NCBI RefSeq assembly: GCF_000974785.1
Contig: NZ_BBWV01000001.1
Span: 1,860,001-1,924,000 of the forward strand
Origin: Flavihumibacter petaseus NBRC 106054
GTDB taxonomy: Bacteria > Bacteroidota > Bacteroidia > Chitinophagales > Chitinophagaceae
Direction: 5' to 3'
DNA length: 64,000 bases
The translations under genes were made by a program, and so were the position numbers. Shown here one piece after another: positions 15,237-44,218 of the stretch (position 1 is the first letter of the stretch; every line of letters begins with the position of its first letter). Below the pieces are notes generated by a model. That model was given only the letters and a program-made list of their open reading frames with translations, was not told where the DNA came from and did no database searches.

Positions 15237-15987
15237 AATGCTTATCGGGTTTCAGCCTGCGGAGCAGCGTATCTTTCCGGCTACGGCTGACGTCAATGCT
15301 TGACCCATCGCTCATTACCAGGTAGCCACCCTCGCCCCGGACATACTTGTTTACTTCATTGAGGTTGATCACACTGGAATGATGCACGCGGATAAAATTG
15401 AATTCTTCCAGCATTTCTTCCACCTCTTTCAGGGTTCTGCTGATCAGGATTTTCTGGTTGCCTTTCAGTGAAAAGAGCGTGTAGTTACTTTCCGAACCGC
15501 AACTGATAATAGAATCCACTGCTATCATCTGGAGGCCTTCCAGGGTAGGCAGGGCGATTTTGTAAAAAGGCATTGAATGCGGATGGAGGTTTTTCAGGAG
15601 AATATCGAGCTGATCCAATGCGTTGTGTGGCCTGGCCTGTACGCATTTTTTTACGGCAGCCTGTAGTTCATCGCGGTCAATTGGTTTGAGCAGGTAGTCG
15701 AGGGCGCTGAAACGGATGGCCTTGATGGCATACTGGTCGAAACTCGTGGTAAAGATCAGGTGAAAATTAAAATCTCCTATCCGTTTGAGCAGTTCAAATC
15801 CATTCATTTGCGGCATCTCAATGTCAAGGAATAGTATATCCGGCGGCTTTTCGTGTATCACTCGCAGGGCCTCCTTGCCGGAATGGCAAATATGGGTTAC
15901 TGTTATTTCAGGACAATATCGTTCGATCAGCAGTTGAAGGGCTTCACAACAATACGGTTCGTCGTCTACCAGTATGGCGCTATTCAT
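15235..15987 (-). CDS. LytTR-family response regulator
   Basis: The 250-residue protein has a receiver domain with acidic pocket D8/D9, phospho-acceptor D55 (ILFLDIEMP) and K in DYLLKPID. A C-terminal LytTR DNA-binding domain (about residues 150-245) has segments IISCGSESNYTLF, ISRTLKEVEEML, FIRVHHSSVINLNEVNKY and DVSRSRKDTLLRRL. LytTR proteins bind direct repeats as dimers. The ATG overlaps the stop of the kinase gene by 4 bp, so the two are one operon and one two-component system. Its sequence is close to the third regulator of the window (60929-61669), including RGEGGYL-MSDGS, indicating paralogues. The targets are unknown; no obvious cognate transport gene remains next to it, apart from a receptor remnant. 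Confidence 0.93.
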   Translation of the reverse strand: MNSAILVDDEPYCCEALQLLIERYCPEITVTHICHSGKEALRVIHEKPPDILFLDIEMPQMNGFELLKRIGDFNFHLIFTTSFDQYAIKAIRFSALDYLLKPIDRDELQAAVKKCVQARPHNALDQLDILLKNLHPHSMPFYKIALPTLEGLQMIAVDSIISCGSESNYTLFSLKGNQKILISRTLKEVEEMLEEFNFIRVHHSSVINLNEVNKYVRGEGGYLVMSDGSSIDVSRSRKDTLLRRLKPDKH

Positions 15988-18104
15988 GACATTCTGTTTA
16001 CGGGGTGAAAGTCATTTTCAGCATAAGCAACAGTAAGTGTCACCTTCGTGCCGGACGGATTGCCGTGCATATCGTAGAGGTCATCTACATCAACACTGGC
16101 CTGCTGCATATTGCGGTTGAGCAATTCAATGCGGCCGGTGGTGATGTGCATCCCCATGGATTTTTGTTTTTCCGTGGATTTACTGTTCAATTTCCGCGCC
16201 ATGGCGCGGCCGATGCCATCATCGGTAATGGTGCAGGTCAGGATATGGCCCACCAGGCGGATTGCAATTTCGAGATGGCCTTTTTCCTCCTTGTGCATGA
16301 GGCCGTGCCAGATGGCATTTTCTGCAAACGGCTGGATGAGTAACGGTGGCAGGTATATTGCGGCAGTGTTGAAACGGTTGTGAAAACAGATGGAGTAGTC
16401 GAATGCATTGCGGAACCGGAGTTTTTCCAGGTCGAGGTACAATTTCAGGGTTTCCAGTTCGTCTTCGAGCAGGATGGCACTGCGTTGCGAGTGATTCAAC
16501 ACCATCCGGATCAGGCGCGAAAATTTGGTAAGGTAGCCGGAGGCATCGTCGGATTCATTTTTCAGAATGAAACGGTTGATGGAATTCAGGCAGTTAAAAA
16601 TGAAATGCGGGTTCATCTGGCTGCGCAACGCCTGCATTTTCAGTTCGGTTGCCTGTTGCTGCAATTCAGCCTGTGATTTTTTGGCTTCTATGGATTGTAT
16701 TTCCAGTTCATGCGAAAGCCGCATTTTTTCGTTCCGCCTTTTCAGCTCCGCAATTCTCACAGAGATCATGCCGAGCATCAGCACGAGTGCCAGACCTCCC
16801 AGCAATGCATTGCGCATCAGTGACGCGCGGTCCAGGGCCGACTGCTGGATAGTATTGGTTTGCCTGAGCATTTCGATCTGGCGTTCATAATCATAGGCGG
16901 CGAGTTTCCCCTTCAGTACGTCATCGGCCACGGATTCTTTCTGCACCACATACTGCCGGTAATAATGATAGGCGCTGTCTGGCTGTTTCTTCCGGTCGTA
17001 AATACTATAAAGCAGCTGATAGGCGTCGCGGATGCGCTGGCGCGCGTGGGTATTGCCGGCAAGGGAAAGCGCTTTCCTCGTGATGAACAATGCTTCCGGA
17101 AGTGAATCCGTATTGAGGTACGCATTGGCGATGTCTGTCAGCAATCGCAATTCGACCGTGATGTCATGTGCCTGCTTTGCCAGTGGCAGTGCCGGAAGCA
17201 GATAATCCAACGCTTTATGGTCCTCGTGCCGGGAGAGCAGGAATTCTCCCATACTGGTGAGATAAAAGCGACGGTCATGGGTGGTCAGTGCGGAAGAATC
17301 GATCAGATTGTAATAGTGCCTGGCTGAGTCGGACTGACCGTTCAGAAAAAACAGTTCCGGAAAACATACCCGAAACCATATGTTTTCGTGACTCAGCGTA
17401 GCCGGGTTTACAACTTTGCGGTAGTATTGGAGCGCTTTTTCATAATTGCCAAGACACCTGTTCAGTTCTGCAAGCAGGTAGTTTTCGAGCCAGGGAGAGA
17501 ATTCCCGGTTATTTTGTTTCTGGAAGTATTTAAAGCTTCGCAGCCATTCAAAGCACCGGGCATATTCACCGGCATCCCGTAAGGGCTCATATCTCGCTCC
17601 CAGCGCATTTTCCATCCAGGCAGTGTCTTTGTACAGCCTTGCCCAGCCGAAAGCTTTGTCATAATACTGGAGTGCTTCCTTCCATTGATTGCGCCGGGCT
17701 TTGGCAATTCCCAGCTGGAAGAACGCGACTTCAATTCCTTTTTTGTTGGTGACCTTTCCAAACCAGTAGAGTGCCTTCCAGGTGCTGGCTTCAGACTCTT
17801 CCACCGGCCTTTCCGTAAAGTTGTACAGCGATGCCCAACACAACCAGGTTAACGCAATGCCCCTAGTATACCCGCATTGTTCTGATATCTCCTGCATTTG
17901 CCGGATATAGTGCCGCGCTGAATCCGTGTTGTCTGAAAATTCGTAACAGATGTTGATTCCAAACAGGTAGTCTACCCTGGCTGAGTCCCGCAATGTACGG
18001 GACACGCTATAGAGACTATCCAGATTCCGTGCCTGGCAAATGCATGCAAGGGCGAACATGGTCAGACACAGAAAGAGGGCCTTATGGTAAAGCCACTTTA
18101 TCAT
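15984..18104 (-). CDS. LytS-type sensor histidine kinase with TPR sensor
   Basis: The 706-residue product starts with a signal peptide (ALFLCLTMFALACICQA), then tetratricopeptide-type helices from about residue 60 to 400 (for example EALQYYDKAFGWARLYKDTA, EKALQYYRKVV, PDSAYHYYRQYVVQKE). One membrane helix (NALLGGLALVLMLGMI) and a coiled coil follow. The kinase part has the His_kinase motif SQMNPHFIFNCLNSINRFIL with the phospho-accepting histidine, then LPPLLIQPFAENAIWHGLMH and a GHKL ATPase box (DDGIGR). The kinase reads a periplasmic cue via TPRs and phosphorylates the adjacent LytTR regulator. It overlaps the regulator gene by 4 bp. The kinase core closely resembles that of the protein at 61662-64000, which has a propeller sensor instead. 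Confidence 0.93.
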   Translation of the reverse strand: MIKWLYHKALFLCLTMFALACICQARNLDSLYSVSRTLRDSARVDYLFGINICYEFSDNTDSARHYIRQMQEISEQCGYTRGIALTWLCWASLYNFTERPVEESEASTWKALYWFGKVTNKKGIEVAFFQLGIAKARRNQWKEALQYYDKAFGWARLYKDTAWMENALGARYEPLRDAGEYARCFEWLRSFKYFQKQNNREFSPWLENYLLAELNRCLGNYEKALQYYRKVVNPATLSHENIWFRVCFPELFFLNGQSDSARHYYNLIDSSALTTHDRRFYLTSMGEFLLSRHEDHKALDYLLPALPLAKQAHDITVELRLLTDIANAYLNTDSLPEALFITRKALSLAGNTHARQRIRDAYQLLYSIYDRKKQPDSAYHYYRQYVVQKESVADDVLKGKLAAYDYERQIEMLRQTNTIQQSALDRASLMRNALLGGLALVLMLGMISVRIAELKRRNEKMRLSHELEIQSIEAKKSQAELQQQATELKMQALRSQMNPHFIFNCLNSINRFILKNESDDASGYLTKFSRLIRMVLNHSQRSAILLEDELETLKLYLDLEKLRFRNAFDYSICFHNRFNTAAIYLPPLLIQPFAENAIWHGLMHKEEKGHLEIAIRLVGHILTCTITDDGIGRAMARKLNSKSTEKQKSMGMHITTGRIELLNRNMQQASVDVDDLYDMHGNPSGTKVTLTVAYAENDFHPVNRMS

Positions 18105-32117: not shown

Positions 32118-32603
32118 TTGGACCAGCAATTCACGGCATTATATCAGCAACATAGTCCCGGCATATATAAAGTCTGCCTCGGGTACACCGGCGATATTTC
32201 CCTCGCGCAGGACCTGCTGCAGGAAACTTTCCTGTCGGCCTGGCGGCACCGCCACCAGTACCGGGGTGAAGCACAATGGAGCACCTGGATCTACCGGATT
32301 GCAGTAAACACCTGCCTGGGTCACCTGCGTAAAAAAAAGGACCGGGTCACTGACCCGGAAGTGCTGGCGGCACTGCCTATGATGGCGGAGAGTAATGAAA
32401 AAGAGCAACAGGTGCAGCTGCTCTACCGGTGTATCAGCCAGCTTCCTGAGGCGGACAGGCTGATCATTACCCTTGTGTTGGACGACAAGCCCTATGCAGA
32501 GATCGCAGGAATTACCGGTATTACGGAAAATAACCTCAGGGTCAGGATTCACCGGATAAAAAAACAGCTCACGGAAATATATAACCGATATGAACAGCTT
32601 TGA
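32118..32603 (+). CDS. ECF-type sigma-70 factor
   Basis: The 161-residue protein has sigma region 2 (FTALYQQHSPGIYKVC, DISLAQDLLQETFLSAW, WIYRIAVNTCLGHLRKKK) and region 4 (CISQLPEADRLIITLVLDD, YAEIAGITGITENNLRVRIH). There is no region 1.1 or 3, which fits the ECF class. Translation starts at a TTG; no ATG is in frame upstream. The next gene, a membrane protein, overlaps its end by 14 bp and is therefore a likely regulator of this sigma factor. The pair probably responds to envelope stress or a signal in the membrane, but nothing in the sequence names it. Confidence 0.88.
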   Translation: MDQQFTALYQQHSPGIYKVCLGYTGDISLAQDLLQETFLSAWRHRHQYRGEAQWSTWIYRIAVNTCLGHLRKKKDRVTDPEVLAALPMMAESNEKEQQVQLLYRCISQLPEADRLIITLVLDDKPYAEIAGITGITENNLRVRIHRIKKQLTEIYNRYEQL

Positions 32604-33270
32604 CGACCTGAAAGAAATCTGGCAGTCATCGGATGAGCCAGGACTGATCCCGCTGCATGAAGGCATGCAGGAGCTGGCGCCACTGCCGGCGGAAACAACC
32701 TGGCCTGTTGTTCCGGTTCTGCCCAGGCGCGGGAAGTCCGCCTTTCCCTCGCGGAATAAGCTGGAACGGCAACTGAAGTTTGGAGCTGCTTCACTTTTCA
32801 TAACCGGGTTATTCGTGTTCTGGCTGGGCTATTTTTCCGGGATACCGTTTCAAAGCAAGGTGACTTATGCAGGCGTCGTTGTTATCGGGCTGGTCTGCTG
32901 GGCACAATCGGTGCTATTATTGTTTACCTGGCTCCGGTTGCATGGCATTGATGAAACTGCCCTGCCTGCTGTGCACCTTCAACAGTGGGAAGCCTATTAC
33001 CGCTTCCGCAGGAAACAGGCAGCCTGGAATGTACCCCTGTATTTTATCGCACTGAACCTTGGCATGGGATTATACTGTATTGAGATTTTTAGTGGCCGTA
33101 AGCCGTTGAACGTCGCGCTTTTCCTGCTCATTTATGGTGCCTGGATGATTATTGCCTATTTCGTGATCGGGAAGCGGAACCTGAGAAATGAAGATGCACG
33201 GCTAAAAAGCATCCTGGACAATGTGCGCGATCTCAAACAGCAGTTTGATAAAGAAGAAGTCCCGGTGTAG
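32590..33270 (+). CDS. Membrane protein, likely partner (anti-sigma) of the ECF factor
   Basis: The 226-residue protein begins MNSFDDLKEIWQSSDEP, a short cytoplasmic lead that recurs in sigma-coupled membrane proteins of this phylum. It has four hydrophobic helices (about residues 57-76, 84-106, 143-162, 170-190) and a charged C-terminal helix (LKSILDNVRDLKQQFDKEE). It lacks a FecR domain and a zinc anti-sigma motif. Its start overlaps the ECF gene by 14 bp, so the products are made together. The anti-sigma role is inferred from position, not from a known domain. A bidirectional hairpin overlaps its stop codon. Confidence 0.65.
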   Translation: MNSFDDLKEIWQSSDEPGLIPLHEGMQELAPLPAETTWPVVPVLPRRGKSAFPSRNKLERQLKFGAASLFITGLFVFWLGYFSGIPFQSKVTYAGVVVIGLVCWAQSVLLLFTWLRLHGIDETALPAVHLQQWEAYYRFRRKQAAWNVPLYFIALNLGMGLYCIEIFSGRKPLNVALFLLIYGAWMIIAYFVIGKRNLRNEDARLKSILDNVRDLKQQFDKEEVPV

Positions 33271-33283
33271 ACACACCGGGACT
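33258..33283. terminator. Bidirectional hairpin between convergent genes
   Basis: A perfect 11-bp stem, AGTCCCGGTGT (33258-33268) with ACACCGGGACT (33273-33283) and loop AGAC, includes the stop of the membrane-protein gene. On the minus strand it is followed by TTCTTCTTT, so it may also end the SusCD operon (stop at 33329). Confidence 0.65.
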
Positions 33284-33328
33284 AAAGTTAAAGGCTCTGA
33301 TTAGTAGCTATATCGACAGAAGACCTTA

Positions 33329-34636
33329 TCAGCCCTCAGTATTCGGCAACGGAAATTGAATCCAGATATCATCATCAGTGCGGTCTTTCGGCAGCTCGTT
33401 AGTGCGGTCATAACGGCGGAGATCGATCCAGCGGTGTCCTTCATAGAACAGCGAGTATCGACGCTGATACAACAGTTCGTTTAACAGTGCAGACTGTGTT
33501 ACACCGCCAGCATAAGGCGTCATGTTGTGTTTTCCTCGGATCACATTAAGCGCAACGATGGCATCGGGCAAAGCATTCTGCTGAATTTTGCTTTCAGCAT
33601 AGATCAGGATCAATTCTTCATTCCGGATCATCGGCAAAGAAGCAGTGCTTGAAGTATACACCCAAACATCGCGGTTGCTGCTCAGTCCCTGCAGGGAAGC
33701 TGTGCTGGTGCGGAGCGTGGCTTTGCTGATGCGATCATCTCCCGGAACAATGTCAGTTGCAAAGCTCGGGTGAGCAGGCCTGATCTCGCCATTCTGATTC
33801 TGCGGAATAAACATACCGTTCAGCTGGTCGCCTGATCCGGTGCTGTATTCATGCGTAACGCCCGTGTTGAGGTCTCCGTTGAGATCAAAGAAAGACTCAT
33901 TGAGATTGCTGAGTGAAGCAGTATAGTTCTTCTGGTATAACGCTACCCTTGCTGCCAGTGCGCGGTTGAATTTGATGAGTCCGGCAGCATCATTGAATCC
34001 GCTGAAGCCGGAGCTGAGCGGAAACGACACGGTCGCGCCGGTAAGGTCGGTCTTACCTGCATCGAGCAGGCTGATGATCGCGGCCAGGCCATTGTCGTAG
34101 GATACGATCGGACCCAGATTATTGGGATCAGATACGTCCACGCGGATACCATTCTGATAGGTGAGGTTCAATGCCAGGAGCAATTGATACGCCCGGATGG
34201 TTTTGGCGAATCCTGAGTATCCTTTTTTCTGTTCAGCCGTGATCTGTGTACTCCGGTTAGCGGACGCTTCCAATACATCGCAGTTCTTGATCACGCGGTA
34301 CCTGGCCGCCCAGGGGTTGGTCGTATAGAATGCATTATTGGTCAGCTGTGCTTCGTTGGCACCGAGCAGGTCGGTCACATAGCGTGGTTCTGAACCAGAG
34401 AAACGATATCCTTCCCGGCCAATGGTGGCAACATCATCGAGGTAGAGCGTGATTTCATTCCGCATGCCGGATTCCGTACCACTCACGAGATTGTTAAGCT
34501 GACTTTGTGTGGCGTCTTTGAGAAAGTCCTCCACTGTGGGACTATTCAGGTTGCCATATTCTTTTTTGCAGGCGCCCAGGAACATTACAGATCCCAGCAA
34601 CAGCAAAGCTATTTTAAGGAGCATATTGTGTTTCAT
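33329..34636 (-). CDS. SusD/RagB-family outer-membrane lipoprotein
   Basis: The start is the ATG at 34636, giving a lipoprotein signal (LLGSVMFLGACKK, C23); the frame is open further upstream but would overlap the SusC gene. The 435-residue protein has the SusD helical pattern: YRVIKNCDVLEASANRS, YSGFAKTIRAYQLLLALNLT and, near the end, LLYQRRYSLFYEGHRWIDLR. SusD proteins sit on the cell surface as the lid of the SusC pore and bind the substrate. The gene follows SusC by 19 bp. No glycosidase gene is in this operon, and the ligand may be something other than a polysaccharide. Confidence 0.92.
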   Translation of the reverse strand: MKHNMLLKIALLLLGSVMFLGACKKEYGNLNSPTVEDFLKDATQSQLNNLVSGTESGMRNEITLYLDDVATIGREGYRFSGSEPRYVTDLLGANEAQLTNNAFYTTNPWAARYRVIKNCDVLEASANRSTQITAEQKKGYSGFAKTIRAYQLLLALNLTYQNGIRVDVSDPNNLGPIVSYDNGLAAIISLLDAGKTDLTGATVSFPLSSGFSGFNDAAGLIKFNRALAARVALYQKNYTASLSNLNESFFDLNGDLNTGVTHEYSTGSGDQLNGMFIPQNQNGEIRPAHPSFATDIVPGDDRISKATLRTSTASLQGLSSNRDVWVYTSSTASLPMIRNEELILIYAESKIQQNALPDAIVALNVIRGKHNMTPYAGGVTQSALLNELLYQRRYSLFYEGHRWIDLRRYDRTNELPKDRTDDDIWIQFPLPNTEG

Positions 34637-34655
34637 ATCAAATGTCTTTGTTGAA

Positions 34656-37604
34656 TTAGAAGTCGATGGAAATATGGAAAGTAGCGCGCTTGCTGGCGGG
34701 GTAAGGCAATACATCGATACCACTGGAGAAGCCGGTACCGAAGTTGGATACTTCAGGATCGTAGGCCTTGTAGTTGGTGATCGTGATGTAGTTGTTCAGT
34801 GAAGCGCCAACACGGAGACCCTTTACAAACTTGATCGAAGGGATAGTGCCGAAGTTGTAATACAACGCAATTTCACGCACCCGGAAATAGCTGGCATCTT
34901 TTACGAAAACTTCAGCTGTGGAACCTACCTGCATGATGCGGTAAACACCGTCAGGCAGACCCTTGTCGTTGGTAACATCATCATAGTCTGCACTGGTGCC
35001 ACCGAAATCGTTCTGCATGGAAGTAAGGTTCACGTTTTCGCCACCTTTTTTCCAATGCAGGAGGAAACGCAGGCTGAGTTTGTTGAAGAAAGTCACCTCG
35101 TTGTAGCTGTTCATCTGGAAGTCAGGCTCTGCATCACCCAGCACGCCTACGCCCTGTCCATTCAGACCCACCAACTGTGTGGCAGATTTGCCTTCTTCGA
35201 TCTGGTAAGTTCCGAGGACGTAACCGAAAGAACCCAAAGGCGTAGAAGGCACAGTCAGTTTCGTCACTTTGCTGCGGTTCAGCCAGAAATTGACGGAGGT
35301 ATTCCAATTCACCTTGCGGTTGCTTACCGGTTTGGCATTGATGCCGATTTCCACACCCTGGTTCTGGAGGTCACCTGCGTTGGTCCACTGTGTGCTGAAT
35401 CCAGAGGATGCGGGAAGGCCAGCCAGCATCAGGAAGTCGTAAATTTTCTTGTTGTAATATGTGGCGCTGAGTCCCAGTTTGCCACCCAGGAAGGCGATGT
35501 CAAATCCGGTTTCCAGCTCTGTCTGCTTTTCCGGTTTGATATCAGGATTACCGCGCTGGATATTGACCAGTGAACCGGGATAGCCCTGGATATTGGAAAC
35601 TACCATGGAAGTGAACTTACTGCCATAAGCAGGGGTATTGTTGGCCTGGCCGTAAGCAGCACGCAATTTGAAATCTTCCACCACACCCTGTTTGATCACA
35701 TTCAGGCGGGTGAGGTTAACGGAAAGCCCGGCTTTCGGGTAGGCATAGTATTTCGACGCGTCACCATTGTTGGAGGACTGGTCGAACCGGACTCCGCCGG
35801 TGACGGTGATCCCATCGCGGATCAATGCTTCTTCCTGGATAAAGAAACCGCTGTTCTGGAATTTGGTGCGGAACTGTGTGGCAGAAAGTGCACCGGCCTG
35901 GCTCACATTAGATTGGTCGGTAATTACCTGGGTAGCCACATTGAGCAGGTTGTTGTAGTCGCCTTTTTCCTGCGTGATCCCTGCAGATGTGGTGAGGTTG
36001 AGCTGCTCACCTGCGCGGAACTGGTTCACCAGCGACAGGATGAAGTTGGTATTGAGATTTTGGGTGTTGCCCTGCATGCTGGTTCCCTTATTCACTGTCT
36101 GGAACTGAAGCTCGGCGGGGAAGAGTGCATTGGTTTCGAGCTGGTAGAAGTCGAAGCCGCCCCTTCCAATAAAACGTGTTGTGCTGCGGTCAGATTTCTG
36201 CAGGGTGGCATCGAGGGTAAGACCCGTCAGAAAACGGTTTACAGACTCGTTGTTGCGCATCAGCGCTACTGTTTGCAGCGGGTTGGAAGCAGCAAAAGTG
36301 TTGTTGGGATACTTGCCGTTTTCGTCTGGATGCAGTTCTGCAAAGCCCGGAGTGGAGGACAGGGCGATACCCAGGGTCACACCGGCATTATCGTTGCCGG
36401 TGAGGGAACGGTCTGCTGAAGAATTGATGTAGTTCGTTGCGATGCCGATTTTGATATTGTCTGTCAGTTTGTGGTCGAGGTTGAGGCGCAGGCTGGTGTT
36501 GCGGTATCCGGTACGTTTCACGATGCCATCCTCTGCTTTCTGGGAGGCTGAAAAGAAGAAGCCGGTCTTTTCACTGCCGCCGTTGAGGCTGAGGGTAGTG
36601 TTGCGCGCGAAGCCCTTGTTGCCGTAAACTTCTTTTTCATAATCATAGATCTTTCCGGCGGCTTCTGCAGCAATGAATTGCTGGCGGAGTGCTTCGCTGG
36701 TAGCAGGGTCAGAAGAAAGGCTGGCTGCTTTGTCGGCATCGAATTTTCTTACGCCGAGCAGCTTCCGGGCTGAGATCACCCCCAGATCCTGGGAGATATT
36801 GACCCTGGTGCGTCCCTGCTTGCCACGTTTGGTGGTGATGATGATCACCCCGCCGGCGGCTTTTGATCCGTAAATGGCAGCTGCGGAAGCGCCTTTCAGG
36901 ATCTCGACGTTTTCGATGTCTTCGGCACGGATATCGGCGATCCGGCTGGAGGGGTTATCCTGGGTGGACGTAGCGCCGGTGGAAGCGGCACCGGTAACGG
37001 TGTTGATCCCTGCACTGGTTGCGGTGTTGTCTACGAAAACGCCATCCACTACATAAAGCGGTTGTGTATTACCGTAAACAGAAGTAACGCCACGGAGTTT
37101 TACAGAAAGGCCGCCACCGGGGGCGCCGGTATTGGCATTGATATAGGCACCGGGAATCTTTCCATTAAGGGCAGCATCAAAGGTCTGGGCGGGCGCCACA
37201 CCATTGAGTTCATTACTGGAAATGGAAACCACCGCGTTGGCAAGGTTGCGGCGCTTCAGGCTGGTGGCAAGACCGGTAACGACCACTTCGTCCAGCTTCG
37301 CAACATCTTCCACGAGGGTGACCTGGCTGCCGCTGGCCAGTTTTGCTGCCGGAATAACCTGGTTGCGGAAGCCCGTGTAACTGATGACCAGGTTGCTGTT
37401 CTCCGGAACTTCCAGGCTGAACTGTCCGGCCGCATCCGTCATAGTTCCGCGGTTTGTTTTTTCAACAGTCACCGTGGCATTGGGAATCGGGTTTCCTTTA
37501 TTGTCAGTAACCTTGCCCGAGATGGTTTTTTGCTGGGCAAGAAGCGAGGGTACCCACAGCCAGCTGAACAACAGGGCTGCAAGGTAGGGGAGCAATTTTT
37601 TCAT
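34656..37604 (-). CDS. SusC/RagA-family TonB-linked outer-membrane transporter
   Basis: The 982-residue protein has a signal peptide (up to SLLAQ), a carboxypeptidase-regulatory-like domain (ISGKVTDNKGNPIPNATVTV) and a TonB box-plug region with VVVTGLATSL, LNGKIPGAYINANTGAPGGG and LYVVDGVFVDN. The rest is the barrel, ending at ATFHISIDF with a terminal aromatic. It imports a substrate captured by the SusD lid, powered by TonB. The gene lies 25 bp downstream of the third AhpD-like gene and upstream of SusD, in the six-gene operon starting at 40540. The substrate is unknown; context points to a small molecule handled by AhpD-type enzymes and an MFS carrier. Confidence 0.94.
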   Translation of the reverse strand: MKKLLPYLAALLFSWLWVPSLLAQQKTISGKVTDNKGNPIPNATVTVEKTNRGTMTDAAGQFSLEVPENSNLVISYTGFRNQVIPAAKLASGSQVTLVEDVAKLDEVVVTGLATSLKRRNLANAVVSISSNELNGVAPAQTFDAALNGKIPGAYINANTGAPGGGLSVKLRGVTSVYGNTQPLYVVDGVFVDNTATSAGINTVTGAASTGATSTQDNPSSRIADIRAEDIENVEILKGASAAAIYGSKAAGGVIIITTKRGKQGRTRVNISQDLGVISARKLLGVRKFDADKAASLSSDPATSEALRQQFIAAEAAGKIYDYEKEVYGNKGFARNTTLSLNGGSEKTGFFFSASQKAEDGIVKRTGYRNTSLRLNLDHKLTDNIKIGIATNYINSSADRSLTGNDNAGVTLGIALSSTPGFAELHPDENGKYPNNTFAASNPLQTVALMRNNESVNRFLTGLTLDATLQKSDRSTTRFIGRGGFDFYQLETNALFPAELQFQTVNKGTSMQGNTQNLNTNFILSLVNQFRAGEQLNLTTSAGITQEKGDYNNLLNVATQVITDQSNVSQAGALSATQFRTKFQNSGFFIQEEALIRDGITVTGGVRFDQSSNNGDASKYYAYPKAGLSVNLTRLNVIKQGVVEDFKLRAAYGQANNTPAYGSKFTSMVVSNIQGYPGSLVNIQRGNPDIKPEKQTELETGFDIAFLGGKLGLSATYYNKKIYDFLMLAGLPASSGFSTQWTNAGDLQNQGVEIGINAKPVSNRKVNWNTSVNFWLNRSKVTKLTVPSTPLGSFGYVLGTYQIEEGKSATQLVGLNGQGVGVLGDAEPDFQMNSYNEVTFFNKLSLRFLLHWKKGGENVNLTSMQNDFGGTSADYDDVTNDKGLPDGVYRIMQVGSTAEVFVKDASYFRVREIALYYNFGTIPSIKFVKGLRVGASLNNYITITNYKAYDPEVSNFGTGFSSGIDVLPYPASKRATFHISIDF

Positions 37605-37629
37605 TTGAAGCTTTTGGTTTTGGTGTCAA

Positions 37630-38181
37630 TCATTTGTATAAATCAAAATTGAGGTAGCCTTCGGCAGCCCTGCGGGGACCGCGATCTACATAGATCTGCC
37701 GGTCGCGCGGCGCTTCTGTTGCGAGGCCATCCACGTAGCGGTTGAACATGCAGAATGCGGCGGCGATAAGTACAGTGTCATGTATTTCCTTGTCGGTTGC
37801 TCCGTTGGCTTTGGCAGCATCCACCTGTTCAGTAGTTACATATTTACCGCCTTTCTGTACGCTGCCGGCGATCTCCAGCAATGCTTTCAGTTTATCGCTG
37901 AGGGGCATGGACCGGAAATCAGCTTTTACCTGGTCGATAAAATTGATGTCGCATTGCAGGTAATGCTGTGCAATACCGCCGTGCGCATTCTGGCAGAAAA
38001 AGCAATCATTCAGTGCGGAAACATAAGTTCCGATCAGTTCGCGGTCACCGCGTGAAAGGGAGTTGTTGTCGTCGCGCAGCAGGATCTCTGCCAGCTCATT
38101 GAGTGGCTTGGCGGTTTCGGGGCTGAACGCCATTGGACCGCGTATACCGGGAAGTCCCTCCGGAAGTTTGATGTGTGGCAT
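37630..38181 (-). CDS. AhpD-like peroxidase-related enzyme (third of three)
   Basis: The 183-residue protein carries the CxxCxxxH centre at C60-C63-H67 (DCFFCQNAHG), preceded by DRELIGTYVSAL. The downstream family motif is EIHDTVLIAAAFCMFNRYVD. This fits the carboxymuconolactone decarboxylase/AhpD fold and its peroxidase-related branch. The cysteine pair could work as a peroxidatic or reductase centre. It is the third of three paralogues in the operon, separated from the second by 17 bp and from SusC by 25 bp. An enzyme with this motif usually acts in the cytoplasm as a trimer or hexamer; there is no signal peptide. Confidence 0.88.
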   Translation of the reverse strand: MPHIKLPEGLPGIRGPMAFSPETAKPLNELAEILLRDDNNSLSRGDRELIGTYVSALNDCFFCQNAHGGIAQHYLQCDINFIDQVKADFRSMPLSDKLKALLEIAGSVQKGGKYVTTEQVDAAKANGATDKEIHDTVLIAAAFCMFNRYVDGLATEAPRDRQIYVDRGPRRAAEGYLNFDLYK

Positions 38182-38198
38182 ATTGCAGGTTGGTTTTT

Positions 38199-38744
38199 TC
38201 AGGGCTTTTTGGGTGGATTGTAACCGTGTTCCGCCAGACGTTTACCCATGGCGGCGTAGGTTTCGGGATCGGTAGGGGTAAGCGTGGCGAGGCCGTCAAC
38301 ATACCGGTTGAACATGCTGAAGGTTGCGGCGATCAGCACGGTGTCATGGATAGCGCGGTCATCCGCACCTGCGGCTCTTGCTTTTTCAACATCAACGGGC
38401 AATACCTGTTTGCCGAGGATCTGCACTTTCCCGGCAATGTTCAGGAGCGCATCCAGTTTTTCACTGATGGGTGCATGTGAAACATCTTCCAGAACTGCAT
38501 CAACCGTTCCGGCTTCGTCCCCGAACAGGCATCGTGCAGCCGCAGCATGACTGCTCATGCAAAAGACACAATTGTTACGGGAGGAAACATAGGCGGCGAT
38601 CAGTTCGCGTTCTGCCGGTGACAGTGTTGAGGGGCCACGAAGCAGCACTTCAGCAAGTGCATAGAGGGGGCCGGCAGTTTCAGGCCGGAACAAAGCGAGG
38701 CTGCGGATACCGGGCACGCCGGCTTCCAGTTCAATATGTGCCAT
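38199..38744 (-). CDS. AhpD-like peroxidase-related enzyme (second of three)
   Basis: Translation is taken from the ATG at 38744, matching the starts of its paralogues (MAHIELEAGVPGI); the frame continues upstream into the MFS gene, but that extension has no homology. The 181-residue product has C59-C62-H66 in NCVFCMSSHAAAA and the motif AIHDTVLIAATFSMFNRYVD. It shares the order of motifs with the copies at 37630-38181 and 39965-40540. The start overlaps the MFS stop by 14 bp, a sign of coupled translation. Separate roles of the three copies are unknown; a mixed oligomer or different substrates are possible. Confidence 0.88.
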   Translation of the reverse strand: MAHIELEAGVPGIRSLALFRPETAGPLYALAEVLLRGPSTLSPAERELIAAYVSSRNNCVFCMSSHAAAARCLFGDEAGTVDAVLEDVSHAPISEKLDALLNIAGKVQILGKQVLPVDVEKARAAGADDRAIHDTVLIAATFSMFNRYVDGLATLTPTDPETYAAMGKRLAEHGYNPPKKP

Positions 38745-39978
38745 TTTCAGCAGGTTTTGGTGTGGTGAATAGAAGTGTAAAGAGACCGATGAGAAATACC
38801 ATGGAAAAAACGAAAAGTGAATTGCCATAACCGCCCAGTTCGGTAACGAGTACGCCAACGAAAAGCACGGCTGTGGCGGTCACCAGGCGGCCTGCATTAA
38901 AACAGAAGCCTGTGGCGGTGCCCCTGATGGCAACAGGAAACAATTGCGGAATATAAACAGAAAGAACACCCTGGCTGGCACCGAAAAAGAGTGCAATCAC
39001 CAGGATCTCAGCATAGATCACAGCGCTGAAAACAGTATTGGTCTTGAACAGTATAAATGAAAGAATGGTGCAGGCGGTGAAACAAAGCACCATCGATTTG
39101 CGTACACCGATACCATTCATGAGCCAGCCCGACAAAAATCCGCCAGCCAGTCCACCTATGCCCAGCATCATCATGCTGATACCTCTTTCCTGCTGGCCAT
39201 CGCCTTCAGTAATCAAAGTCTGGATCCAGGTAGGGATCCAGGAGAATATTGCCCACAGACCGATCAGCATCGAACCAAAAATTACTGAGCCGGACAGCAG
39301 GTCGCGACCATGGTTACCCGAAAAGATACTTTCGCTGGCCGAAATGTCTCCGGGGCCTCCTGAAACAGCTGGTTTTGACCTGTTTTCCAGCCAGGAACGG
39401 GATTCCCTGAGCAGTTTTACGGAAACCAGTGACAGCACAAGGGGGAGGTAACCTACATTGAATCCTTCCCGCCAGGAATGGAAGATATATTGGGTTACGC
39501 CGGCTGAAAAGATGCCGATGGGAATGGAGATGGAAAGGATCCCAAGGAAGATCGCCCTCGATTTTGCAGGCCATTCTTCCATAATAATTGTCGTGGTGGT
39601 GACGAGAACTGCGCCCAGGCCAAATCCGCTGAAAAAGCGGCAGATCAGCACGCCTGTCCAGTATTGCATGTGGCCGGTAGCGATCGTGAAAATGGCGTAA
39701 CTCGCAATGGAAATGATCACTGCAGGTTTGCGGCCGAAGCGGTCGCTGATCCAGCCGCAGGCAAAACCGCCGAAAGCACCGCCGAAAATAAAGATGGCAC
39801 TGATGTAGGCACTGATGCGGTTGAGCGCAGCATCATCCTGGGTTCCTAACAGGTCTCTGACGGCAACCGGCAGGTAAACGGACATAAGGGTTGATATGGT
39901 TCCTGCGAATGCAGTGCCGAGAAAACAGATGGTAAACAGCACCCAGTGATAAGGGGTGATGCGGTCATTGTTGCTCAT
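38731..39978 (-). CDS. MFS transporter
   Basis: The 415-residue protein has about twelve hydrophobic helices. The loop between helices 2 and 3 reads GWISDRFGRKPAVI (MFS motif A), and helix 5 has GILSISIPIGIFSAG. The N-terminus (YHWVLFTICFLGTAFAGTIS) and the symporter-type loop suggest a proton-coupled organic-acid or sugar carrier of the broad MHS/AAHS type, but not a specific substrate. It lies between the first and second AhpD-like genes, overlapping both by 14 bp, so it is an integral part of this operon and likely moves the AhpD substrate or product across the inner membrane. Confidence 0.9.
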   Translation of the reverse strand: MSNNDRITPYHWVLFTICFLGTAFAGTISTLMSVYLPVAVRDLLGTQDDAALNRISAYISAIFIFGGAFGGFACGWISDRFGRKPAVIISIASYAIFTIATGHMQYWTGVLICRFFSGFGLGAVLVTTTTIIMEEWPAKSRAIFLGILSISIPIGIFSAGVTQYIFHSWREGFNVGYLPLVLSLVSVKLLRESRSWLENRSKPAVSGGPGDISASESIFSGNHGRDLLSGSVIFGSMLIGLWAIFSWIPTWIQTLITEGDGQQERGISMMMLGIGGLAGGFLSGWLMNGIGVRKSMVLCFTACTILSFILFKTNTVFSAVIYAEILVIALFFGASQGVLSVYIPQLFPVAIRGTATGFCFNAGRLVTATAVLFVGVLVTELGGYGNSLFVFSMVFLIGLFTLLFTTPKPAENGTY

Positions 39979-40540
39979 GTTGCTTTTTTAGATGGTCATA
40001 GCCCTGGGGCAGGCGATTGTAGCCATTGTCTTTCAGGCGTTGCCCCAGTGACTGGTAAAAATTCGGATCCTGGGGAGTAACGGTGGCGAGTCCGTCAACA
40101 TAGCGGTTGTACAGGCAAAACAATGCGGCGATCAGCACCGTATCATGGATCTCAGTATCAGAGGCACCGGCAACCTTTGCCGCCAGCACAGCGTCATCCG
40201 TTACTGATTTGCCGGACTCCTGAACCATTGAAGCAATCGTAAGCAGAGCCTTCATTTTTGCGCTCACGGGAGCAGTGGTGATATCCTGTTTGATCCGCGT
40301 TGTGGTATTGGATTCACCCAGCAGGATATCTGCTGCTGCTGTGTGGGCAGTGGCGCAAAAGTGGCACAGGTTGCGGTGGGACACGATGGTGGCGATCAGC
40401 TCTCGTTCACCCTCAGTTAATGTGTTAGGGCCGCGGAGGAGGAACTGTGTAAGTTCCCGGATAGGCTCCGCAGTGTCTTTACGGTACTCGAGCAGGCCGG
40501 TAATGCCCGGCAGGTGCTCTTCCAGTGGAATGTATGGCAT
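39965..40540 (-). CDS. AhpD-like peroxidase-related enzyme (first of three)
   Basis: The start is the ATG at 40540 (MPYIPLEEHLPGI), aligned with the paralogues; a further upstream ATG at 40576 would lie at the putative promoter. The 191-residue product has C59-C62-H66 (LCHFCATAHTAAA), GERELIATIVSH ahead of it and EIHDTVLIAALFCLYNRYVD after it. It starts the operon AhpD-MFS-AhpD-AhpD-SusC-SusD. Its stop overlaps the MFS start by 14 bp. Three diverged AhpD-type enzymes in one operon suggest that a reactive or peroxidised compound is processed after uptake. This is inference from gene order. Confidence 0.88.
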   Translation of the reverse strand: MPYIPLEEHLPGITGLLEYRKDTAEPIRELTQFLLRGPNTLTEGERELIATIVSHRNLCHFCATAHTAAADILLGESNTTTRIKQDITTAPVSAKMKALLTIASMVQESGKSVTDDAVLAAKVAGASDTEIHDTVLIAALFCLYNRYVDGLATVTPQDPNFYQSLGQRLKDNGYNRLPQGYDHLKKQHEQQ

Positions 40541-40573
40541 AGATGGATTTGTGAACAGCATAGTATGGCAACG

Positions 40574-40605
40574 CAAGCTTAGCCGCCAGTTGCCGGAATG
40601 TAAAA
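40574..40605 (-). promoter_or_regulatory. Likely promoter of the AhpD-MFS-SusCD operon
   Basis: On the minus strand TTTT (40605-40602), a 20-base spacer and TAAGCTTG (40581-40574) fit the Bacteroidota promoter with one change in each box. A transcription start near 40567 would give a leader of about 27 bases before the ATG at 40540. This supports the operon starting at the first AhpD gene. Confidence 0.45.
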
Positions 40606-40612
40606 GTGCTTA

Positions 40613-41158
40613 TCAGCCTACCGCTGGGGGGTGAAGCAGTTGCAGGCTATAGCCATTACAGGGAAGTTCTGACAGCAATGCGAAATGCAGCTGATCAGGT
40701 AGTATAACCGGTTGCGTTACCTGGAGGGAGTGGCTTTCATTGTACTCAAATCCGAAACCGCCTTTTTTGGAGGTGTCATGTTGTTTTTTGCCGGCAGGCA
40801 GATCATTGGCAGTATTGACGAAACGGGTTTTATCTTTTACCAATCTTGATTTCTGCGCATTGGGCTTGCACTTCAGGTATAACGTATCGTTGGAGATGCG
40901 TTTTTTTACGTAACTGTAATGAATGTCGTTGATGACAATTTCTCCTTCTACCGTTTCGAATTCGGGTTGATCCGTATAATAAGGAAGGTTAAGCGCCACT
41001 TTTAGTTCGGTAAGGTCCGATTCGTCGAACAGCTGGTTGTCTCTCGCCTGGGCAAAATGCCAATCGGCCTTTTCTATCAGGTAATTAAATACCAGATTAT
41101 ATCCCACCAGGTTAAACAGGAAGGCAGTTAGCAGGAATATGGCGAAAACACGTTTCAA
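40613..41158 (-). CDS. Hypothetical protein with N-terminal membrane segment
   Basis: The 181-residue protein begins with one hydrophobic helix (MKRVFAIFLLTAFLFNLVGY), followed by a helical NYLIEKADWHFA segment. Then come DLTELKVALNLPYYTDQP, ETVEGEIVINDIHYSYVKKR and YLKCKPNAQKSRLVKDKTRF; the C-terminus is a flexible tail ending in LLHPPAVG. No family is recognised. It precedes the AhpD operon by 72 bp on the same strand. A small anchored protein with a periplasmic domain next to a TonB system might belong to that system, but nothing proves it. Length and composition suggest it is real. Confidence 0.55.
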   Translation of the reverse strand: MKRVFAIFLLTAFLFNLVGYNLVFNYLIEKADWHFAQARDNQLFDESDLTELKVALNLPYYTDQPEFETVEGEIVINDIHYSYVKKRISNDTLYLKCKPNAQKSRLVKDKTRFVNTANDLPAGKKQHDTSKKGGFGFEYNESHSLQVTQPVILPDQLHFALLSELPCNGYSLQLLHPPAVG

Positions 41159-41173
41159 CCTGTTAAATATAGG

Positions 41174-41194
41174 GGAATTTCCAATTCCGGGAAT
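41174..41194. promoter_or_regulatory. Overlapping inverted repeat between divergent genes
   Basis: GGAATT (41174-41179), TCC, AATTCC (41183-41188) forms a 6-bp palindrome, and ATTCC-G-GGAAT (41184-41194) overlaps it. The site lies between the hypothetical gene (start 41158) and the lipoprotein gene (start 41262), where both promoters must be. It could be an operator; no regulator is assigned. Confidence 0.3.
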
Positions 41195-41261
41195 AGGATG
41201 ACCGGTAACCGGCCTGATGCAACCTTTTTTCTTTTCAGGAGGTCAACCCGAAAAAGGCTTT

Positions 41262-41654
41262 ATGAAATATATGGTTGGCAATATAGCGGGTAGCAGATGG
41301 CTGATCCTGCTGGTGGCATGCCTTTCATTCGCCCTGGCTTCCTGCAAAAAAGATGAAGCAGCACCGGCTGCCGATGTAAATGGGGCATATATAGAACTGT
41401 CACCCATTCCAGGCCGGATGATCATCAACTTTACCGGTGAAAACCAGATGAGCATCCAGGCCGCCGGCAGTGACCATGCCGATGTCTTTTATTATGAGAT
41501 CACCGGAGACTCGATCCGGCTTACACCGGTATCAGATCAATACGGAATTACAGTAGTGTATTTTAAATGGCTGACGGATGTGAAATTCGAGATTGGCAAC
41601 CTCCTTCCTTCGATACCGGAACTCCCTGCGGTAAATATGGTTTTCAGCAAATAG
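41262..41654 (+). CDS. Small lipoprotein of unknown function
   Basis: From the ATG at 41262 the product has 130 residues. It has a lipoprotein signal (LVACLSFALASC, C28) with KKDEAA after the cysteine. The mature part is about 100 residues with beta-strand spacing (AYIELSPIPGRMIINFTG, YYEITGDSIRLTPV, LPAVNMVFSK). The frame also allows a start at 41217, but the ATG at 41262 places the lipobox normally. No family is recognised. The next gene, the membrane-anchored regulator, starts 32 bp later on the same strand, so the two may be linked. Confidence 0.65.
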   Translation: MKYMVGNIAGSRWLILLVACLSFALASCKKDEAAPAADVNGAYIELSPIPGRMIINFTGENQMSIQAAGSDHADVFYYEITGDSIRLTPVSDQYGITVVYFKWLTDVKFEIGNLLPSIPELPAVNMVFSK

Positions 41655-41686
41655 GTTCCTATTTTAGCGGTTGTCTTTTCCGCCGT

Positions 41687-44218
41687 ATGATAAGATACCT
41701 GCTTAGTCTCTCCCTTTTGCTGCTGTCTGCTGCTTACCTGAATGCCCAATCATACGGACTGGCGTTCAACAGTCATGCTGTGGTACAGGAGAACCGTACG
41801 GCACTTGATCTTTCTCCCAATGACTCCCTGTGTTTCGGATCTGTTATGCAAATGGATTTCGACCTCAATTTCCTTTCGGGCCAGCAGATCTATTTCGGGT
41901 ATATCGTCCGGTTGGTGAACAGCAATCAGAACATCGACCTGGTCTGTACGCAGAATACGTTTAAAGTGGTGGTTGGCCAGCAGCTGACCAGTATCGTATT
42001 TAGTCTTGATTCAGCGGCACTGTTCAAGAACTGGAGTCACTTCAGTTTTACCGTTGATGCAGGGAAGCAAACCATCTCACTGAAGGTGAACGGAGAGGAC
42101 AGGGGCAGTCAACAGGTTGCTATTAAAGGCAATTGCTATAAGATCCTGTGGGGCGCCAATGACCATTACCGGTTCAATACCCGTGACCTTCCGCCCATGC
42201 AGGTAAAGGATATCCGCCTGCTGGACGAAGGAAAGGAAAAATATTTCTGGAGCCTGGCAGATACCAGCGGTGTGAGCAGTACAGATCGCTGGGGAAACAG
42301 GGTGGCAGCGGTTAAGCATCCGGTGTGGATCAAACCCAGACACCAGTACTGGGAAGAATGGGGAAGTTTTGTAGTGGGCGGAAATGCCGCCATTGCCTAT
42401 AATGTTCAGGCTGACCGGTTGTATATCGCCGGTAGTGATTCCCTGGGAGTGGTCAATCCTGCTATACGCAACAATGTGGAGTGGTTGGTGTCCGGTCATC
42501 CGAATTTCCAGCTGGGCAACCAGGCGGTATTCGATCCCCTCACTAATAGGATCTATGATTTCTCCGTCGACCAGCGCCGGGTAATTTCTCTCGACCCGGC
42601 TGATCATTCCTGGTCGGGGGCGATGCATGATTCAATTCTGACCGAATTCTGGCACGCGAACAAATTCGTATCACCCATTGACACCGCTTTATATATGGTA
42701 GGCGGTTACGGCCAGCTCAAATACAAGAACTCCATATACCGATACGGACTGACCGATCACCGATGGGAAAAGGTTGCCGTATCAGGTGATGCATTCACAC
42801 CCAGGTACCTGGCTGCACTGGGAACAAACCCGACTGGCGATACAGCATTTATCCTTGGCGGCTATGGAAGTCCCACAGGAGACCAGATGCTGAACCCGGG
42901 TAATTATTACGATATGTTTGCATACGATGTACGGCAGCGGAAGTTCAGAAAGCTTTTTGCAATTGACAGCGCCAACCCCCATCATGTTTTTGCAAACAGC
43001 CTGGTAATGGACCCGGATAACAAAAGTTACTACGCACTGATATTCGAAAATGGCAGCTTTGATACGCATTTGCAGCTGGTAAAAGGGGGGTTGGATGGCA
43101 GTGCACTGGTTCACCTGGGCAACCCGATTCCTTATGCATTTTATGATATCCAGTCGTTTGCCGACCTGTATTTCTCTCCCCGGAGCAGCAAACTGATCGC
43201 TGTTACGCTGTTTTCTTCTCCTGAAACGGAAAAAAACAAAACCACGCGGGTCCGGATCTATACCATCGATTTTCCCGCGGAAGCCATCATGGCTGGTGCA
43301 AAGGGAGTGGATGGAAGTACGGGGAAAGAGAAGTTCTGGTGGGTGGCTGGCGCCCTGGTACTCGCAGCACTTTTTGGATTATGGTGGAGGGAACGGGCCC
43401 GGCAGCAACAGAAAGTAGCGGTAATGCCTGGACAGCGCGAAGAAATCAAACATGAAGAAACACGGGTAGCCGAAATGGTGGCGCCAGCAGACCCGGCGAG
43501 TAGAGTTCAGCTGTTCGGTCAGTTCCTGGTAACCGACAGTGAAGGTAATGATATCACCAAGTCGTTTACCCCGTTATTAAAGGAACTGTTCCTGCTGATC
43601 CTGATCTATACTTACCGGAATGGCAAGGGAATATCTGCTGACGCGTTGACGGAAATGCTCTGGCACGACAAATCTCAGAAGGACGCCAAAAACAACCGCT
43701 CGGTGAACCTGGCCAAGCTGAAGACCGTTCTGGAAAAAACCGGACATGGCATTTTCAACCGGGAAGGGGGATACTGGCAGTTTGTTGCCGGAACAGCAGG
43801 CAATGTGGATTATCAGCAATTCACCCGGCTGCAGAAGGAAAATCAGGTTATAGATAATAGTTATATGAGCCGGTTGCTTTCCATTGCAGAACACGGACCT
43901 TTTTTACAGCAGACGGAGTACAACTGGCTGGACGATATAAAATCTGACGTGTCCAACCAGGTGATTGATGACAGCCTCCGTTATATCCGCCAGGTTAACC
44001 TGGCCGAGGAAGCTGAGCCGGTAATTGAGATTTGCAACTGTATTTTTCAGTTTGACCGATTGAACGAAGATGCCCTTGAGTACAAATGCAAGGGCCTGAT
44101 CCAGCTGAAGCGTCATGCTTTGGCCAATACGACCTACGTTAAATTCACCAAAGAGTACAAGGAGATCTATGGTGAGGATTTTGCCAAAAGCTTCAATGAA
44201 GTAGTCAGGAACGCCTGA
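41687..44218 (+). CDS. Membrane-anchored one-component regulator: Kelch-like sensor, winged helix and TPR/BTAD-like tail
   Basis: From the ATG at 41687 (signal MIRYLLSLSLLLLSAAYLNA) the product has 843 residues. Residues 21-200 look like a concanavalin-like beta sandwich (DLNFLSGQQIYFGYIVRLV). Residues 220-540 contain Kelch-type blades (VFDPLTNRIYDFSVDQRRVI, TALYMVGGYGQLKYKNSIYR, DTAFILGGYGSPTGDQ). One helix crosses the membrane at about 548-568 (WWVAGALVLAALFGLWW). Inside, residues 604-700 match an OmpR/SARP winged helix (VQLFGQFLVTDSEGNDI, KELFLLILIYTYRNGKG, LAKLKTVLEKTGHGIFNREG). The tail resembles a BTAD-type TPR. It would bind a ligand outside and act on DNA directly. It sits just ahead of the GH92-SusCD locus and is the likely regulator of it. 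Confidence 0.82.
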   Translation: MIRYLLSLSLLLLSAAYLNAQSYGLAFNSHAVVQENRTALDLSPNDSLCFGSVMQMDFDLNFLSGQQIYFGYIVRLVNSNQNIDLVCTQNTFKVVVGQQLTSIVFSLDSAALFKNWSHFSFTVDAGKQTISLKVNGEDRGSQQVAIKGNCYKILWGANDHYRFNTRDLPPMQVKDIRLLDEGKEKYFWSLADTSGVSSTDRWGNRVAAVKHPVWIKPRHQYWEEWGSFVVGGNAAIAYNVQADRLYIAGSDSLGVVNPAIRNNVEWLVSGHPNFQLGNQAVFDPLTNRIYDFSVDQRRVISLDPADHSWSGAMHDSILTEFWHANKFVSPIDTALYMVGGYGQLKYKNSIYRYGLTDHRWEKVAVSGDAFTPRYLAALGTNPTGDTAFILGGYGSPTGDQMLNPGNYYDMFAYDVRQRKFRKLFAIDSANPHHVFANSLVMDPDNKSYYALIFENGSFDTHLQLVKGGLDGSALVHLGNPIPYAFYDIQSFADLYFSPRSSKLIAVTLFSSPETEKNKTTRVRIYTIDFPAEAIMAGAKGVDGSTGKEKFWWVAGALVLAALFGLWWRERARQQQKVAVMPGQREEIKHEETRVAEMVAPADPASRVQLFGQFLVTDSEGNDITKSFTPLLKELFLLILIYTYRNGKGISADALTEMLWHDKSQKDAKNNRSVNLAKLKTVLEKTGHGIFNREGGYWQFVAGTAGNVDYQQFTRLQKENQVIDNSYMSRLLSIAEHGPFLQQTEYNWLDDIKSDVSNQVIDDSLRYIRQVNLAEEAEPVIEICNCIFQFDRLNEDALEYKCKGLIQLKRHALANTTYVKFTKEYKEIYGEDFAKSFNEVVRNA

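Follow-up and report, generated by a model that had tools for sequence, protein, structure and literature searches.

The AhpD-like protein RclX of Pseudomonas aeruginosa is needed for tolerance of HOCl and HOSCN and retains four of the five catalytic residues of AhpD (PMC7950407, excerpted text). Among the AhpD-fold enzymes called CMDs here, one from B. thetaiotaomicron is found in an iron stimulon table (PMC10434189, excerpted text), and the Zobellia protein ZGAL_1598 is induced on algae (PMC9296495, excerpted text); both may belong to a subfamily other than the one described below. The Zobellia vanadium haloperoxidase 4cit is an iodoperoxidase according to its title in the reference list of PMC5064120. 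In the literature searched, which comprised open-licence papers, we found no description of the unit reported here. It lies in a 64,000-nucleotide stretch of DNA from the soil bacterium Flavihumibacter petaseus NBRC 106054 (the host), and this whole stretch is called the window. Comparison of gene order, conservation, receptor exchange, orthologous CMD groups, invariant residues and gene associations makes it reasonably probable that the unit is a two-membrane system for the import and conversion of a small organic molecule, with AhpD-fold thiol enzymes acting in the cytosol.

Gene order and transcription unit

The genes are tightly packed on the minus strand in the order CMD1-MFS-CMD2-CMD3-SusC-SusD, with a further gene, U, one position upstream (Table 1). 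CMD1 and the MFS gene overlap by 14 bp (39965–39978), as do the MFS gene and CMD2 (38731–38744). The remaining gaps are 17 bp (CMD2–CMD3), 25 bp (CMD3–SusC) and 19 bp (SusC–SusD), which confirms the tight coupling of the six genes proposed in the original prediction. It had also stated that each AhpD-type enzyme keeps CxxCxxxH and a second conserved stretch, and that the operon has no glycosidase. Both motifs are present in all three CMDs, the second as IHDTVLIAA...NRYVDGL, and the Pfam and NCBIfam scan found no glycosidase among the seven genes.

Table 1. Features of the operon and U-headed loci of the host (coordinates are window positions).
Feature	Position	Strand	Description
U (P0007)	40613–41158	-	181 aa, TTG start; no Pfam or NCBIfam match; basis: family alignment
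CMD1 (P0001)	39965–40540	-	191 aa, peroxidase-related AhpD-fold, CHFCATAH; PF02627 and TIGR01926 above cut-off
MFS transporter (P0002)	38731–39978	-	415 aa; PF07690 (MFS_1) 121.3 bits, above cut-off
CMD2 (P0003)	38199–38744	-	181 aa, CVFCMSSH; PF02627 and TIGR01926 above cut-off
CMD3 (P0004)	37630–38181	-	183 aa, CFFCQNAH; PF02627 and TIGR01926 above cut-off
SusC-type TonB-linked outer-membrane transporter (P0005)	34656–37604	-	982 aa; TIGR04056 516.2 bits, TIGR04057
SusD-type lipoprotein (P0006)	33329–34636	-	435 aa; PF07980 50.3 bits against a cut-off of 23.1; lipobox-like LGAC by eye
Terminator-like stem-loop past SusD	33258–33283	-	11 pairs, 7 G-C; between convergent genes; about 45 bp beyond SusD
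Host U locus 1	this operon, 40613–41158	-	U-family match
Host U locus 2 (L056)			U-TonB receptor-MFS-CMD3; second such receptor operon; U-family match
Host U locus 3 (contig C19)			U-haloperoxidase-317-aa protein-PAP2/haloperoxidase-like-TonB receptor; 317-aa protein without a Pfam family

A promoter-like site had been predicted ahead of the operon, and this was not borne out: the region 33000–41700 holds six sigma-70-like sites against 8.1 ± 3.4 in shuffled sequences, and none lies just ahead of CMD1. Inspection by eye for promoters of the Bacteroidota type gave no convincing site. The number of terminator-like stems in the region (14 against 9.8 ± 3.3 in shuffles) is near chance. Riboswitch control was considered and rejected; Rfam gave no match in the window and only one tRNA in eight relative loci. 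U ends 72 bp before the start of CMD1. Of the 79 relative loci that have both CMD1 and MFS, 58 carry a labelled U gene in the same orientation. The transcription unit therefore probably starts one gene further upstream, at U, and the operon genes would be transcribed together.

Two further places in the window were noted. On the plus strand, 32118–33270 holds a sigma-factor-like gene and a second gene overlapping it by 14 bp, both converging on the end of the operon; by eye, these are an ECF sigma factor and a possible anti-sigma partner. On the minus strand, a reading frame of 1807 aa occupies 6549–11972.

Conservation of the CMDs and exchange of the receptor

The three CMDs of the window are 51–52% identical to one another and score above the curated TIGR01926 cut-off of 81.8 bits (82.8 for CMD1, 88.5 for CMD2 and 84.3 for CMD3). 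The nearest solved structures to CMD3 are 2prr, 3c1l and 2pfx. In an alignment of 337 CMDs whose N-termini had been cut back to a Met close to the PGI motif, three positions of the active centre never change: the second Cys and the His of CxxCxxxH, and a Glu 12 residues ahead of it. The first Cys of CxxC is present in 323 and is replaced by Thr in 14, including all four Streptomyces copies included, so the two-Cys chemistry of AhpD is not obligatory. At the position preceding the second Cys, 288 have Phe and 49 have Tyr. The pattern is consistent with a nucleophilic Cys that Glu and His activate and a resolving Cys that is optional; these roles follow those in M. tuberculosis AhpD.

The original prediction described the redox enzymes as triplicated. 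Three AhpD-type enzymes are indeed present, but a recent triplication is ruled out by the tree, in which CMD1, CMD2 and CMD3 fall in three separate clades, C1, C2 and C3, of 87, 68 and 92 sequences. Clade supports are 0.997 for C1, 0.876 for C2 and 0.777 for C3, with 0.95 for the next clade in. On this sequence tree the three are old orthologous groups, each member of which has been kept. Only one further CMD of the same kind occurs in the host genome, 66% identical to CMD3.

Relatives of CMD3 were found in 26 of 59 genomes (relatives search, E ≤ 0.001, host included), and an even sample of 395 Bacteroidota genomes has the subfamily in 26, though not always within this operon (E ≤ 1e-20, host included). 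A scan of genome contigs gave a CMD3 relative encoded in at least 571 of at least 595 stretches, and the best 80 were kept. Genes were then labelled in 125 Bacteroidota loci with at least one CMD. This set is enriched for close CMD3 relatives, and the conservation figures are inflated because the 80 scan loci were the matches most similar to the CMD3 of the window. Open reading frames were picked by a greedy length rule, which lost some genes: L056, the second host locus, lost its CMD3 and is absent from the 125, and L194 lost U. Loci L084, L124, L129 and L131 (same genomes as other loci) and the actinobacterial L033–L036 were left out, and L137 and L138 are the same place, so that the 125 include it twice.

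CMD1 and MFS are both present in 79 of the 125 labelled loci, a count unaffected by that duplicate; 25 of these have SusCD, 36 a classical TonB receptor and 18 neither labelled. Of the 78 loci that combine MFS with at least two CMD groups, 61 have an outer-membrane receptor. Among labelled genes, the order CMD1-(receptor)-MFS-CMD2-CMD3 is unbroken in 51 loci, and CMD1-MFS-CMD2-CMD3-(C4)-SusC-SusD in nine. C4, a fourth paralogue, goes with SusCD: it is present in 22 of the 25 SusCD loci against none of the 36 TonB loci (p 1e-13, kinship ignored). SusCD loci without a labelled C4 are L114, L118 and L130, and the window operon is itself the SusCD form without C4, whereas Flavihumibacter profundi carries the variant that includes it. 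Eleven of the loci L147–L165 have a single CMD, of group C5, without any other labelled gene of the system. The gene order is conserved well beyond this one strain, and the joining of outer- and inner-membrane transport with AhpD-type enzymes, as predicted, is that of a co-inherited unit across the relative loci.

Placed on a tree of 86 MFS sequences, receptor type requires at least three changes; 200 shuffles of the labels gave a mean of 20.6 and a minimum of 15. The MFS–CMD core has thus stayed the same, and it is the outer-membrane component that has been swapped. This exchange, the MFS carrier and CMDs that lack signal sequences by eye together point to import followed by conversion in the cytosol, with the MFS protein presumably working inward.

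SusCD usually serves glycans, and trehalase and GH65 genes lie near some related loci. The locus could on these grounds be read as a glycan utilisation locus in which SusCD merely lies behind unrelated CMD genes. We consider this most improbable, and chance adjacency is an unlikely explanation. SusC (TIGR04056) and SusD (PF07980), both above cut-off and adjacent, are alike across genera (62–73% and 60–70% identical, respectively) and stay beside the CMDs. The spacing is operon-like, and none of the seven genes encodes a glycosidase.

The best curated model for the MFS protein is TIGR00895 (aromatic acid/H+ symport), though its 151.2 bits are far below the cut-off of 418.55. The match would suit an ordinary nutrient that is taken up and catabolised, namely an aromatic or other carboxylic acid of plant or soil origin, which esters may release. 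An esterase (PF00756) in nine of the 125 loci, whose four PDB matches include a weak one to ferulic acid esterase, agrees with this, as do two matches over cut-off to the intradiol-dioxygenase family (56 and 43 bits) elsewhere in the host genome. However, no ring-cleavage or CoA-pathway enzyme is found among the seven window genes, and a nutrient of this kind leaves the haloperoxidase, DUF3179 and MetE-like associations described below unexplained. We therefore think it an unlikely account of the operon.

Associated haloperoxidases and enediyne plasmids

U is labelled in 62 of the 125 loci. Its AlphaFold2 model (mean pLDDT 83.3) consists of a long N-terminal helix and a four-stranded sheet, with a C-terminal PP motif, and no structural match was found in the PDB at E ≤ 0.001. 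There are exactly three U-family matches in the host genome (E ≤ 0.01), each heading a related locus (Table 1). Across the 395 genomes, U occurs in 43 at 1e-10 and in 19 at a strong cut-off of 1e-35, a threshold chosen once the listed values were known, which leave a gap between 1.8e-37 and 6.7e-24. Seventeen further U places were fetched: 13 carry a haloperoxidase label, three have only the TonB receptor of the type on C19, and one has CRTAC and DUF3179. U is a marker gene that ties together scattered haloperoxidase, receptor and CMD loci. Its starts seem to be non-ATG. Among 45 members whose first start lies 12–22 codons before a GY motif, 36 have TTG, eight GTG and one ATG, and this may reflect translational control.

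The first haloperoxidase on C19 aligns over residues 20–443 of 445 to 4cit (E 1.3e-114). Both proteins share the RP, SGH and SR..GGIH motifs, which have roles in vanadium haloperoxidases, and the activity is predicted from homology. In five loci (L058, L062, L067, L076 and L079), C19-type genes stand ahead of CMD1-MFS; the haloperoxidase is present in all five, the 317-aa type in four, and U in all but L062. Across the 395 genomes, strong U (19 genomes) and haloperoxidase (69) overlap in 18. The CMD (26) and haloperoxidase overlap in 14 against 4.5 expected, kinship ignored.

This co-occurrence speaks for a defence against oxidants, in which the CMDs would reduce hydroperoxides or hypohalous products of the cell's own haloperoxidases, the MFS protein would export products and the receptor would be a side passenger. 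The host has at least three copies of the enzyme resembling the Zobellia iodoperoxidase, one of them in a U-headed operon, and RclX offers a precedent. The protection that RclX gives P. aeruginosa from HOCl and HOSCN (PMC7950407, excerpted text) is counted for import and conversion as well. We hold defence to be unlikely, since the outer-membrane receptor is kept in most CMD1 and MFS loci and is even swapped for another type; TonB-dependent import would be needless for peroxide defence.

The receptors could alternatively serve the acquisition of a metallophore, vanadate or iodide, importing a complex whose cargo the CMDs free by reduction. TonB receptors occur in the alternative form of the unit, and another is found in the host U-haloperoxidase operon. 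Haloperoxidase-dependent iodine uptake has been proposed for Arenibacter C-21 (PMC5064120), and the Arenibacter locus L107 has the TonB form. However, we found no positive evidence for a metal, and the annotated neighbours of the CMD–MFS pair in the Streptomyces places viewed include no metal-uptake genes. This explanation is, in our judgement, very doubtful.

Two other gene families recur near these loci. GH65- or trehalase-like genes lie by U-haloperoxidase or CMD loci (L202, L205, L207, L208 and L212; also L062, L067, L068 and L079), assigned by a family test in L205 and by sequence or length in the others; they are perhaps a source of glucose and H2O2. A family of 360–369 aa with an N-terminal QGCVAIR motif lies close to haloperoxidase genes in L195, L201, L202, L206 and L208, and its member in L208 gave no Pfam match.

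Besides the esterase, the accessory genes among the 125 loci are DUF3179 (36), MetE-catalytic-domain-like (16), CRTAC1-like (14) and haloperoxidase-like (13). One DUF3179 copy per 5.7 Mb would place it by chance in about 0.3% of 18-kb stretches; the single DUF3179 gene of the host lies away from the operon. CMD and DUF3179 are both reportedly among selenoproteins, judging by the topic of PMC9312934 and PMC13188914. A search of the host genome at E ≤ 1e-40 gave no MetE-like gene. In the 395 genomes, the CMD overlaps with U in eight and with the MetE-like gene in four; the latter occurs in seven genomes, three of them without the CMD. Its co-occurrence with haloperoxidase is not significant (three genomes, p 0.11, kinship ignored).

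The same CMD subfamily was found on plasmids of actinobacteria. A search of 72,556 plasmid records gave 46 actinobacterial ones (45 Streptomyces and one Nonomuraea) with a CMD 47–57% identical to CMD3. DUF1702, which like CRTAC1 belongs to the enediyne warhead cassette by plasmid annotation, was found in 49 records. The 45 records common to both make up 45 of the 46 actinobacterial CMD records, but many are S. clavuligerus, S. zaomyceticus or S. globisporus and thus redundant, and the DUF1702 query was taken from a plasmid on which the CMD had already been found. When each of 18 lineages is represented by a single record, the best-matching CMD and DUF1702 places are no more than 35 kb apart in nine and up to 140 kb apart in the others. 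We found no account of the role of the CMD subfamily on DUF1702 plasmids in the open-licence papers searched.

On the C-1027 plasmid SGLP1, one CMD (66370–66921) lies inside the cluster region and a second at 96566–97144. A MetE-like gene (15639–16703) adjoins a CMD of another family (no match at 1e-10). The MetE-like protein matches 16 Bacteroidota loci, the three best at 62–64% identity, and the three best Bacteroidota matches of the cluster CMD are at 51–53%. CRTAC1 and an RnfD-like neighbour have weak relatives in four and three Bacteroidota loci. The enediyne PKS, DUF1702 and the apoprotein gave no match in the Bacteroidota loci fetched. DUF1702 is absent from all 15 CMD-bearing Bacteroidota genomes searched, host included, while the C-1027 positive control gave two matches. 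By that test these bacteria are not enediyne producers, and the idea of the host as such a producer is not supported.

Of nine Streptomyces plasmid places viewed, three have an MFS gene directly after the CMD, and we count this arrangement, in an organism without an outer membrane, for import and conversion. The other six have no MFS gene after the CMD, although one of them has an MFS gene next to it on the opposite strand. Two Streptomyces MFS proteins were compared with P0002 and are distant from it (20–26% identical over short stretches). As a separate observation, rsgA adjoins the CMD in two Streptomyces plasmids and lies near the MetE-like gene in a Trichlorobacter plasmid (L033, L184 and L168).

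Proposed function and relation to known systems

In the import-and-conversion system that we favour, SusD and SusC would capture a small organic molecule and pass it across the outer membrane, powered by TonB; species that have a classical TonB receptor beside this MFS and these CMDs would use it instead of SusCD. Entry into the cytosol would then fall to the MFS protein, which probably works by proton symport, and CMD1, CMD2 and CMD3 may convert the molecule there with Glu, Cys and His as the catalytic centre. In CMDs that keep the first Cys of CxxC, this residue could resolve a disulfide. U would be a membrane-anchored partner in the periplasm. We infer the chemistry, the place of U and the class of substrate from the comparisons above.

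Association with haloperoxidases, DUF3179, MetE-like proteins and enediyne plasmids favours a substrate that is reactive, halogenated or highly unsaturated, and it singles out no one compound. The associated genes favour an electrophilic, peroxidised or halogenated one; halogenated, peroxidised or enediyne/polyyne-like molecules are candidates. The original prediction had suggested uptake and detoxification of a reactive small molecule, such as a lactone, phenolic or peroxidised compound, or else a mixed-subunit enzyme. Its reactive substrate is plausible from the haloperoxidase and enediyne-plasmid links, but nothing points to a lactone or a phenolic.

Enediyne assembly passes through an iodinated intermediate. 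A bolder and quite improbable proposal is that these Bacteroidota import and disarm or scavenge enediyne- or polyyne-like, possibly iodinated, products of actinobacteria. They would rely on the CMD that the producers carry on their enediyne plasmids and, in some relatives, on the MetE-like enzyme found there as well, and the linked operon of the vanadium-iodoperoxidase type would act on the same halogenated chemistry. The presence of this CMD subfamily in 45 of the 49 DUF1702 plasmid records is a sharp lead across phyla. The substrate, once solved, would tell the role of these enzymes both in the Bacteroidota unit and on the enediyne plasmids.

The conserved unit combines an MFS carrier and several thiol enzymes of the AhpD fold with import through SusCD or a TonB receptor. 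The CMDs resemble the AhpD-type enzymes of TIGR01926 and PF02627 in their family scores and in Glu...CxxCxxxH. Unlike AhpD and RclX, they occur here in sets of three or four ancient paralogues within a single transport operon, and the Thr in place of the first Cys sets some of them apart from an AhpD-type two-Cys centre. M. tuberculosis AhpD has a His immediately before the second Cys, whereas this residue is Phe or Tyr in the CMDs. The tandem SusC and SusD families are those of polysaccharide utilisation loci, but the unit has an inner-membrane MFS protein and redox enzymes instead of carbohydrate-active enzymes, and its SusCD can be replaced by a classical TonB receptor. The homologue of the Zobellia haloperoxidase 4cit lies in a U-headed operon at another place in the host genome, and no haloperoxidase is among the seven window genes. 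For the C-1027 plasmid SGLP1, the Bacteroidota loci searched hold no counterpart of the apoprotein, the enediyne PKS or DUF1702, and the host none of the MetE-like gene, yet the plasmid shares with the Bacteroidota unit the same CMD subfamily and, in relatives, the same MetE-like subfamily.
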